Positions 1 through 23,110 of a DNA stretch of 39,438 nt are shown here, in pieces (the first letter of the stretch is position 1; each line of letters opens with the position of its first letter). Where the stretch lies: contig CALDUF010000090.1 of NCBI GenBank assembly GCA_937923515.1, positions 1 to 39,438 on the forward strand, read 5' to 3'. This stretch comes from an uncultured Flavobacteriaceae bacterium (GTDB lineage: Bacteria > Bacteroidota > Bacteroidia > Flavobacteriales > Flavobacteriaceae). A model generated the notes under the pieces. The model ran no database searches, was not told where the DNA came from, and saw only the letters and a program-made list of their open reading frames with translations. Made by a program: the position numbers and the translations under genes.

Positions 1-61
1 CTCCAGCTCTTGCGGACACGTTTTTTGTTTGGTTTTACAACGCCTTTGGCAGGTATAACCC

Positions 62-140
62 GCGTTAGGGATTGAGGCATTTGTTGAAGCTCCTCGCAGA
101 GAGCGACTGCCGAAAGCCCGACCCCTTGTGGGTAACGCCC
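62..140 (+). repeat. Structured intergenic element, copy A
   Basis: This is one of three copies in the window (others at 14834-14960 and 22649-22743). It opens with GCGTTAGGGATTG and closes with GGTAACGCCC, so the ends GCGTTA and TAACGC can pair. The shared core GAAAGCCCGAC lies near 112-122. Two inner stems are visible: GCTC/GAGC around 88-103, inside an outer GGCA/TGCC pair, and ACCCC/GGGT just before the closing arm. It ends 5 bp beyond the trpE stop codon, on the strand opposite to trpE. No ORF is evident in it. Bases 1-61 show nothing I can name. It could be a mobile repeat or an RNA element; the function is unknown. Confidence 0.7.
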
Positions 141-145
141 TTATT

Positions 146-1948: not shown

Positions 1949-1978
1949 AAAAGGCTTGTCGTGAACGACAAGCCTTTT
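1949..1978 (-). terminator. trp attenuator terminator hairpin
   Basis: On the minus strand, AAAAGGCTTGTCG, loop TTCA and CGACAAGCCTTTT form a perfect 13-bp stem, followed by further Ts. It lies 45 bp after the leader-peptide stop codon. The competing pairing is visible: TCGTGAA, just after the leader stop, can pair with TTCACGA formed by the loop and the 3' arm, which would open the terminator. CTTTCGAA, in the Trp-codon region, can in turn pair with TTCG(T)GAAG with one bulge. This is the layout expected for ribosome-dependent attenuation. Confidence 0.85.
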
Positions 1979-2023
1979 GGATATTTTAAGTTTTAAATAT
2001 ACTAGGATTTTACTTCACGAATG

Positions 2024-2071
2024 TTAGTTTCGAAAGCACCACCACCAAGTATTATTTAAAAATGTGTTCAT
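2024..2071 (-). CDS. trpL: Trp operon leader peptide
   Basis: This is a 15-codon ORF that reads MNTFLNNTWWWCFRN and then stops, with three consecutive Trp codons (TGG TGG TGG) at positions 9-11. It lies 20 bp after a well-formed promoter and is followed by alternative RNA hairpins ending in a terminator. Stalling of the ribosome at the Trp codons when charged tRNA-Trp is scarce would favour the antiterminator and allow transcription into the genes that end with trpE. The role is inferred from layout; the codon run itself is seen directly. Its symbol follows the usual name for such leaders. Confidence 0.88.
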   Translation of the reverse strand: MNTFLNNTWWWCFRN

Positions 2072-2090
2072 TGTATTATTTTTGATGCCT

Positions 2091-2121
2091 CAAAGATAAA
2101 AACGAAAATATAAATACGCAA
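2091..2121 (-). promoter_or_regulatory. trp operon promoter
   Basis: On the minus strand TTG (2121-2119), a 20-bp spacer and TATCTTTG (2098-2091) match the Bacteroidota primary promoter pattern TTG-N17-23-TANNTTTG. Transcription would begin near 2085, placing the leader-peptide ATG at about +15. Confidence 0.7.
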
Positions 2122-14322: not shown

Positions 14323-14356
14323 CATATTCTAAGTCACAACGCAGTTGTGAGTGTTG

Positions 14357-14748
14357 TGGAGTCGGAGAGAATCGAACTCTCGTCCAAACAAGTAACCAAA
14401 GAGCTTTCTACACGTTTATTTTGTTCTTGGTTTTTCGATTATAAGCTGGTTACAAACAACCCACTTACAACTTAGCTTCTTAAGTTTCAAAAAGGCGACA
14501 AAGCACCACCTTTTCTATATCGACATTTACGATGCCTCAAAATAGAACGCCGTCAATCAAGGCTTTCTGGAGACATAAAGCTTGCTCACCTTGTGAGCCT
14601 AGGCTAATTCTACTATAATTCGAATTATGCAGCTAAAGCGTAGTTATTCTCGCCGTTTAAAATTTGGTCTAGCCTTTAACGTGTTTCAATGCCATTACAC
14701 GACGTGCTTACCGTTCAATTAATCTCGCTGTCAAAACCAGTCGACCCC
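14357..14748 (-). ncRNA. ssrA: Transfer-messenger RNA (tmRNA)
   Basis: This RNA rescues stalled ribosomes and tags the unfinished protein for proteolysis. The tRNA-like ends are clear. The 5' GGGGTCG pairs with 3' CGACTCC (one G-T wobble), the 5' domain continues CTGGTTTTGACAG, and the 3' T arm is GAGAGTTCGATTCTC. The tag frame is at 14654-14625 and reads GENNYALAA followed by TAA, which fits tags of this phylum. The 392-nt length is normal. The CCA tail is not encoded (discriminator A is followed by CAA), so it would be added after transcription. The exact 5' end is set by the acceptor stem. Confidence 0.96.
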
Positions 14749-14760
14749 TTCAATGAGATA

Positions 14761-14812
14761 GGTACGCTATTTGGCGTACCGTAATCGAATTAATCCCGAA
14801 CTTGTTTCGGGA
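14761..14812. repeat. Two hairpins upstream of tmRNA
   Basis: The first is GGTACGC (14761-14767) with GCGTACC (14774-14780). The second is TCCCGAA (14794-14800) with TTCGGGA (14806-14812). Neither has a T run on the tmRNA side. They lie 12-64 bp upstream of the tmRNA 5' end, within its promoter region, and directly next to element copy B. They resemble dispersed palindromic repeats more than regulatory sites. Confidence 0.5.
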
Positions 14813-14833
14813 GCTCAACGATAATTTTAAGTT

Positions 14834-14960
14834 GGGCGTTACCCACTTTTGCTTTTAATGGCAAAAGTGCGTCGGGCTTTCCGCTATATCTTTTGTTTAA
14901 AGTATTGCTGCTAAGGCAGTAATACTTTAAACAAAAGGATGCCGCTGCAATCCCTAACGC
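14834..14960 (-). repeat. Structured intergenic element, copy B
   Basis: This is the longest copy of the element. On the minus strand it opens with GCGTTAGGGATTGCAG and closes with GGTAACGCCC. The first inner stem is greatly extended: about 22 bp, CTTTTGTTTAAAGTATTACTG against its complement, with loop CCTTAG. The core GGAAAGCCCGAC follows, and the second stem is CACTTTTGC/GCAAAAGTG. The remainder of the 353-bp gap (14961-15101) is AT-rich sequence without recognised features, apart from presumed promoter sequence for the next gene. Confidence 0.75.
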
Positions 14961-15101
14961 AAAATCCTAAACCCATCCAAAAACAGGCAAAGGATTGCAA
15001 AATTACTGAAAATAATAACTCAAAAGCTATACCACATGCAATTTTAGCCAAAAAAAAGACAAATTTGCATTAATTAAGTAATGTTCTCAAAACAAAAACA
15101 C

Positions 15102-22561: not shown

Positions 22562-22648
22562 GTGTTTACATTTAAAGCGTAAAGTTAAGGAAATGATGTG
22601 ATTTGATGGTGCTTAATTTTGGAATTGCACCGTTGCTAGCAGGCACGT

Positions 22649-22743
22649 GCGTTAAGGATTGCAGTGTAAAGCCCACAGCCCGACGCAGGAGGTGCGAGGA
22701 CTTGCAACGGAAAGCCTGACCACGCCTTAGCGTGGTAACGCCC
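22649..22743 (+). repeat. Structured intergenic element, copy C
   Basis: It opens with GCGTTAAGGATTGCAG and closes with GGTAACGCCC. The core is GGAAAGCCTGAC. The first inner stem contains CGCA/TGCG and an outer TTGCA/TGCAA. The second stem is CCACGC-CTTA-GCGTGG. Stems differ in sequence from copies A and B but remain paired. As with copy A, it ends a few bases (7 bp) beyond the stop codon of the adjacent minus-strand gene and lies on the opposite strand. Confidence 0.72.
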
Positions 22744-22750
22744 AAAAATT

Positions 22751-23110
22751 TTAAAGACTTTTGTGTAATGAGTTTCTAATAATCCACAGTGCCATGACTA
22801 AGCTTATGAATATGAAGATGCCACCGTACATAGTAAGTTGTTTTATGGGGTGAGATAGTGGTATGATGTGTAAAACATCTGACAAAAAGGCTAAAATAAG
22901 GTAGGATGATAGGCAAACAAATGTGATGCCTAATGTGAAATTTAGTTTTTTGTTAGGTTTTATAATTTGCCATAAAAACGGGATGCCAAATAACAATATT
23001 GGGTAGGCCACAACACCTTGCGATTGGTTATAGCTTGTAAATAGGCAGGCAGTTACTGCAATAAAATAGAGGTAAGGTGTGTATTTTGAATAATTTGATA
23101 TGGTATTCAT
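22751..23110 (-). CDS. Small four-helix membrane protein
   Basis: I do not recognise this 119-residue protein. It has four hydrophobic segments with short loops (PNKKLN, SHPIKQ), consistent with a small inner-membrane protein of four helices. It is monocistronic, divergent from typA and about 190 bp before kdsA on the same strand, with a structured repeat in that gap. Confidence 0.7.
   Translation of the reverse strand: MNTISNYSKYTPYLYFIAVTACLFTSYNQSQGVVAYPILLFGIPFLWQIIKPNKKLNFTLGITFVCLSSYLILAFLSDVLHIIPLSHPIKQLTMYGGIFIFISLVMALWIIRNSLHKSL

Follow-up and report, generated by a model that had tools for sequence, protein, structure and literature searches.

Short structured interspersed repeats of Bacteroidota in which a conserved frame carries differing hairpin arms

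The window analysed here, a stretch of 39,438 nucleotides from an uncultured Flavobacteriaceae bacterium (assembly GCA_937923515.1, contig CALDUF010000090.1), raises the question of what the three dispersed elements are that have common ends and a common core around inner parts of different sequence. Copy A lies at 62..140 (+), copy B at 14834..14960 (-, the minus strand) and copy C at 22649..22743 (+), at the positions and with the common blocks that the initial annotation had reported. Read on its own strand, each consists of the blocks GCGTTA[G/A]GGATTG, AAAGCC[C/T]GAC and GGTAACGCCC, with an inner part between each block and the next. The common design is an outer stem P1 (GCGTT/AACGC), an arm P2, an arm P3 (formerly called stem 2), and CCC, usually followed by AAA. 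The parse of the three copies gives GGG, an A.G mismatch and TT/AA as the base of P2 and CC/GG as the base of P3. In copy A, as parsed from the sequence, P1 is formed by 62-66 and 134-138, P2 occupies 68-119 (+; body type T5) and P3 122-132 (+), and TTA follows directly instead of AAA. Copy B has its P3 at 14842-14871 (-) and its P2, of body type T1, at 14874..14954 (-). In copy C, P2 spans 22655-22717 (+; type T3) and P3 22720-22735 (+). Copy A is preceded by TTTGGCAGGTATAACCC at 45..61 (+), a kind of motif common in the genus, and copy C by TTGCTAGCAGGCACGT at 22633..22648 (+); reading such a 5' motif and the right end as a direct repeat was rejected as too weak. Integron attC sites read AAC to the left and GTT to the right. 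The element ends, GCGTTA…TAACGC, show by eye the reverse order, and the attC reading was dropped.

Predicted folds agree with this design to different degrees. Folded as DNA, copies A and B give the three-way junction; copy C forms P1 and P3, and its P2 keeps the GGG base around a different interior. Folded as RNA, A and C contain P1, P2 and P3, and B has a different P2. Single-sequence folding is strong for copy B (z -6.5 as RNA, -8.0 as DNA) and weak for A and C (z -1.3 and -1.15 as RNA, -2.0 and -2.5 as DNA, respectively); for copy C as DNA, the opposite strand folds better than the element strand (z -3.55). Folding probably involves the strand that bears the purine-rich internal loops, since the loops are conserved there; folding energies alone do not settle the matter. 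These 3x3 loops, which surround a GC/GC pair in P2, were seen in the T1 bodies (37 of 71 copies in the source genome).

Covariation was measured in a MAFFT alignment of 26 of the 56 parsed copies, mostly short ones because those are the copies that MAFFT can align. Pairing is kept in 98.7% of the 312 tested cells (92.5 after shuffling). Two-sided changes occur at 7 of 12 pairs and in 15 cells, each cell being a sequence rather than an independent event, against a shuffled mean of 1.7, and no shuffle out of 500 reached these values; when the partner was shifted by one to three columns, 0-4 two-sided cells remained. The count of further pair types gives a weaker signal (10 of 500 shuffles as high). 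Across the source genome, departures from the consensus in P1 and P2 comprise 35 two-sided Watson-Crick changes, 2 G-U and 1 A-C; many of the two-sided changes are co-inherited, so the 35 are not 35 events. In P3, 2 two-sided Watson-Crick departures stand against 6 non-pairing ones, and body-base pairs include four G-U and one A-C. G-U thus exceeds A-C only slightly, which bears on whether selection acts at the RNA or the DNA level. The sixth P1 pair (A-T) is unconstrained, pairing in 121 of 202 cases. RNAalifold on an alignment of mixed types recovered P1 alone, because different body types fail to align. The initial annotation had concluded from covariation in three copies that this is a structured RNA or single-stranded-DNA element. 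The structure and the covariation of the frame hold; the differences between copies largely reflect arm replacement.

It had also counted three copies within 23 kb. Those copies are real, and the number is far too low: searches of the genome and the phylum gave many more. A finder that used no pairing information recognised 73 distinct elements in the source-genome loci (377,937 bases, overlapping stretches counted) and none in the same loci read backwards; the genome has at least 71 complete copies, the number recognised in the fetched stretches. The left-end pattern with up to 2 mismatches occurs at 99 sites of this genome (5 in the reversed control). By regular expressions of our own, partly by eye, the P2 bodies of the 71 copies were typed as T1 (37), T3 (15), T2 (10), T4 (6) and T5 (2), with one unclassed. 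The Rfam model Flavo-1 (RF01705) gave 60 matches in this genome at E<=0.001, 32 of them above the cut-off, from 150 of 576 candidates scored. With 65 candidates scored per genome, which makes the counts lower bounds, Flavo-1 matches were present in at least 37 of 60 genomes, the source genome included. The exact left-end pattern was found in 56 of 395 genomes of a class sample, with no hit in any row of the reversed control. A scan of named genomes yielded at least 118 stretches; the 80 matches listed come from Flavobacteria, Bacteroidales, Lentimicrobiaceae, a Cytophagaceae bin and what we take to be Sphingobacteria, and one metagenome bin titled Bifidobacterium breve (L141) is taken for a mis-binned contig. 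Element ends are conserved across the phylum, and AAA follows 59 of the 71 source-genome copies and 73 of 114 named-genome copies among the matches listed. Copy number ranges from 0 to dozens between genera, and the occurrence across the genome samples is patchy; the family is therefore phylum-wide, patchy and dispensable. Copy B as a query had no match in plasmid and phage record collections. The left pattern is present in 24 stretches of viral contigs, 16 of which gave a complete element; these are too few for phages to be named as the vehicle.

Part of this element is already on record. The initial annotation had named Flavo-1 among the families to compare, and copy B fits it with 58.2 bits over 14866-14965 (gathering score 42 bits). 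Copy C reaches 29.6 bits, below the cut-off, and copy A has no match. The likeness lies in the type-T1 P2 arm (GATTG-NA-GC-GG…GC-GGA-AAGC), which in copy B is the portion covered by the model; T2 and T5 bodies have a base different from the purine-loop P2 of Flavo-1. The Rfam model stops at P2, whereas the family adds P1, P3 and four further P2 bodies. Strong Flavo-1 matches in the relatives G005, G028, G040 and G048 are bounded instead by TAGCCC…GGGAAATAGCTCC and lack P3. One T1 body can occur both in this second frame and in the GCGTT frame, as does the one with the loop GAGGCACGA; the Rfam model therefore describes a shared arm and not a whole element. Weinberg 2010, in the excerpts available, rates Flavo-1 'y n n', where y stands for probably RNA in the legend. 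Within the CC-licensed part of PMC, that is the only paper retrieved on this repeat in Bacteroidota; the search for 'Flavo-1 RNA' returned none, and neither the full element nor an exchange of arms was the subject of any paper found. Element strings gave matches in that same collection that are off topic by title, and among the matches listed only GGGCGTTACC and GGTCGGGCTTTC occur. What was already known is the Flavo-1 arm; what is new is the full element with P1 and P3, and the modularity of its arms. An orphan Rfam 'RNA' thereby turns into an arm within a modular repeat that spans the phylum.

Within one genome, an arm can be common to copies whose other arm is unrelated. At an identity of 0.95, the 2485 pairs of source-genome copies include 20 with a common P2, 43 with a common P3 and none with both. 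Many of the 43 have short loops, and 11 have the same P3 loop of at least 12 nt together with differing P2. At a looser cut-off, 4 pairs share both arms (1.8 expected), and at the loosest 8 do (3.5 expected, 13 of 300 shuffles as high, the pair L025/L030 included); arm linkage is therefore weak rather than nil. Copy A and L032 have the same P2 body and different P3 arms; copy B and L008 have the same P3, with T1 bodies of different tips. Among the T2 copies, five match one another at 92-100% (nine pairs among the matches listed), and the matching stretches of 67-89 nt end before P3. The L025/L030 pair is a segmental duplication, 96% alike over 534 nt, which terminates exactly at the right end of the element. 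Other palindromes recur in the P2 and P3 tips of many source-genome copies (TTGCCACGTCGCT…CCTCGCAATGACGT, CCCGAAACGAGTTCGGGA and CCTGCAAGG…CCTTGTAGG), and these nested palindromes may be of the CGTC kind.

Comparison of orthologous loci shows the same at fixed positions: frames persist while P2 arms or their tips, and P3 arms, change type. The sites were taken non-randomly, from stretches around source-genome elements (the window, C2 and C113) and around elements of the relative G007, with the copy A locus left out, and 14 of them are filled in at least two genomes of the genus, decayed copies included. Eight of them have P2 arms of more than one type (B, C, D, F, H, I, J and L261/L262; visual reading gave the types for C in G008, F in G001 and G002, H in G003 and G007, I in G010 and the decayed L262). 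A ninth, L285a, varies in the tip alone, and five have a common body: K (source genome and G007), L267/L268, L279/L280 (decayed in G002), L281/L282 and L285b. Site B, in the tmRNA leader, carries T1, T2 or T5 across nine genomes (G005 is T1-like by eye), and site J carries T1, T2 or T3 across seven. At site B, G010 and G001 are identical over 20 nt upstream and 60 nt downstream, and their bodies are 0.32 alike. Likewise, G007 and G002 have identical 60 nt downstream of site J, with an upstream similarity of 0.85 and a body similarity of 0.14; at L285a, their flanks are 0.95 and 0.97 alike and their bodies 0.36. An unusual P1, GTG/CAC, is found at site J in G002, G005, G008 and the source genome with T2, T1, T2 and T1 bodies, respectively, and the P3 letters of G002 and G005 are identical there. 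Flanks and outer stem can thus be conserved around differing bodies, so it is largely the frame that descends with the locus, and replacement affects the arm within it. The P1 of G009 at site J is broken, with GTG on one side and CGC on the other; the frame is therefore not always kept intact.

Copies also decay or disappear between sister genomes. Among 12 elements of G007 in the compared stretches, five are matched in G002 by an element that is still recognisable, whether its body is the same or not (L267, L281, L285a, L285b and L291); those at L261 and L279 are decayed in G002, L277 is an internal-deletion remnant, L265 and L283 are gone, L287 has no recognisable G002 counterpart, and the L263 stretch did not align. 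L283/L284 was considered as a clean insertion and is read as a loss because three other genomes have the element there. L265/L266 was likewise considered as a precise empty site and is read as a loss because the source genome (L042) and G007 share the element. By parsimony, then, G002 has lost the elements at both L265 and L283. At sites E and G only the source genome has an element, with both flanks present in four and eight relatives, respectively, and new copies therefore do seem to arise. A second small palindrome, approximately CCTGCCTGCCGGCAGGCAGG, was seen inside elements of one sister genome and is absent in the other (L286, L281, L257 and L268); it lies within the 3' strand of P1 or at the base of P2.

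The position of the elements relative to genes is uneven. Copies A and C had been reported to end just past a stop codon on the opposite strand, and this generalises. Copy A is separated by the spacer 141..145 (5 nt) from the stop of a convergent ORF (146-1552, -), and copy C by AAAAATT at 22744..22750 (7 nt) from that of the ORF 22751-23110 (-). With genes taken as longest-ORF calls and copies inside a longer ORF excluded, the right end lies 5-22 nt from the stop in 19 of 29 copies that have a convergent right neighbour; a gene 3' end on the left is that close in only 3 of 23 (right-left contrast, Mann-Whitney p 5e-5). A gene start is the next feature to the right in 22 counted cases, at a distance of 13-435 nt. 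Copy B lies upstream of the tmRNA (14354..14748, -) on the same strand, and an element is present at this site by the tmRNA in 8 of 11 genus relatives. A conserved promoter-like block, GGTAAATTTGCC, precedes the tmRNA in the relatives, with the element between them (window 14749-15060 and orthologous loci); the tmRNA precursor may therefore carry a variable hairpin insert.

On balance, these elements are best regarded as short non-coding structured interspersed repeats of Bacteroidota, comparable to BOX and ERIC, with recombination or template switching between copies as the probable means of arm exchange. Each copy would be a three-way junction in which a frame (P1, the P2 base, the core GAC and the end CCC) bears two exchangeable hairpin arms, and copies would reside for long periods in intergenic DNA, often just past stop codons. 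Arm replacement could proceed by ectopic recombination or template switching between copies while one strand, most simply the lagging one, is single-stranded and folded, and the short conserved frame (10-20 nt) would supply the homology. Selection would act on the ability of the purine-loop strand to fold. No donor arm was identified for any swap at the compared loci, and the genome searches found no helper enzyme, since Y1_Tnp and RVT_1 are each absent from some copy-rich genomes; judged by these searches, both are unnecessary. A dedicated exchange system, in which an enzyme would cut folded single strands, or copy them, at the bases of P2 and P3 and swap whole hairpin arms, seems rather unlikely; if it existed, it would be a cassette-swap at fixed chromosomal addresses that acts on hairpins rather than genes.

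The most serious of the other readings, a possible though doubtful one, is that of a multicopy small RNA family, as Rfam files Flavo-1, in which the folded transcript binds a protein or target and only the frame is functional. The purine internal loops conserved on one strand would suit it, as would the excess of two-sided Watson-Crick changes in P1 and P2 given above (35 vs 2 G-U and 1 A-C). TAnnTTTG is the -7 box of Bacteroidetes. It occurs within 60 nt upstream of 9 of the 69 source-genome copies other than copy B, compared with 6 downstream and 2.4 in shuffles, but at no fixed position. The full promoter pair, TTTG-N16-23-TAnnTTTG, precedes none of these 69; it precedes 7 of a set of 88, but that set includes the orthologues of site B. 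Just 16 of the 69 have four consecutive T no more than 15 nt from the 3' end, and a conserved promoter with a terminator was accordingly rejected as a general feature. A copy number of 0 to dozens between genera, with decay and loss between sisters, also speaks against such RNAs. The 14-member sRNA family FopS of Bacteroides (PMC11697453, as excerpted) and the 'y n n' entry in the excerpts of Weinberg 2010 speak for the reading. A quite unlikely alternative is a 3'-end device of the neighbouring gene, a terminator or mRNA stabiliser read from the opposite strand; the 19 of 29 right ends near a convergent stop would fit, but the 22 neighbouring gene starts and the position of the conserved purine loops on the other strand do not, and nearness to stops is also expected of tolerated insertions, as excerpts of PMC3049150 report for BOX.

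Mobility as single-stranded DNA by an HUH (Y1) transposase, in the manner of the non-autonomous REP/RAYT elements, appears unlikely. Folded ends, intergenic location and many copies agree with it, and in 60 genomes, compared without regard to descent, Y1_Tnp was found in 24 of 37 genomes with Flavo-1 and in 3 of 23 without (p 1e-4). Both quantities, however, track genome size, with a partial rank correlation of 0.20 left between them, and the association is p 0.10 within the family and rho -0.50, p 0.10, within the genus. Five genomes (G003, G014, G016, G028 and G037) have 13-23 Flavo-1 matches and no Y1_Tnp match, and no precise insertion was found at the compared sites. As the raw association is lost after genome size and is non-significant within the family, the transposase was rejected as a necessary driver. 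The single Y1_Tnp domain of the source genome is in frame with the sequence that follows it (493 aa, L031:1483-2964), which we take to be HemF (coproporphyrinogen oxidase); frames of 517-530 aa at the Y1_Tnp matches in G002, G009 and G010 hint at a wider fusion in the genus. Copying of arms or elements from RNA by a reverse transcriptase is very improbable. It would account for folded arms that move independently and for the A-rich 3' tail, and RVT_1 is weakly associated with any Flavo-1 match in a test that likewise ignores descent (14 of 37 genomes vs 3 of 23, p 0.045), but not with 5 or 10 or more copies. Moreover, RVT_1 was not found in the source genome (assembly 87.6% complete), G002, G003, G005 and G007-G010, which have 14-38 Flavo-1 matches.

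Among described repeats, BOX of streptococci is, by analogy, the best functional parallel of the interspersed repeats proposed here. In excerpts of PMC3049150 it is intergenic, structured and present in many copies, over-represented between convergent genes, with fixed ends and variable inner modules; here, too, fixed outer modules enclose variable inner ones at orthologous loci. Likened by these descriptions, BOX varies the copy number of one inner module, whereas the present repeats swap two separate arms for unrelated ones. ERIC, YPAL and other stem-loop repeats, as excerpted from PMC2267715, are likewise folded, intergenic and numerous, but ERIC forms a single long stem-loop and no three-way junction; a word search of the available text of that paper found no mention of Bacteroid or Flavobact. 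The extragenic folded repeats of REP/RAYT (PMC2817692) and the GTAG/CGTC palindromes (PMC3733652) are similar in the excerpted descriptions, the latter reporting CGTC repeats from Bacteroidetes too; by eye, the frame differs from a GTAG- or CGTC-tagged hairpin, and Y1_Tnp is unneeded, the raw association notwithstanding. FopS resembles the present family as a multicopy family of the phylum; according to the excerpts of PMC11697453 it has 12-15 copies with a single-stranded 5' stretch and a terminator hairpin, against at least 71 copies with a three-way junction and no promoter pair found upstream of the source-genome copies other than B.

Recombination between dispersed and very short homologies is naturally recorded in these repeats, and they carry a warning that covariation in multicopy bacterial elements can be inherited along with exchanged arms. 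Swapped arms are already seen between genomes with 86-93% similarity in one common stretch, so strains could serve to measure the process. The window also contains a Bacteroid-trp peptide leader (RF01692) at 1967-2091 (-), with 64.6 bits.
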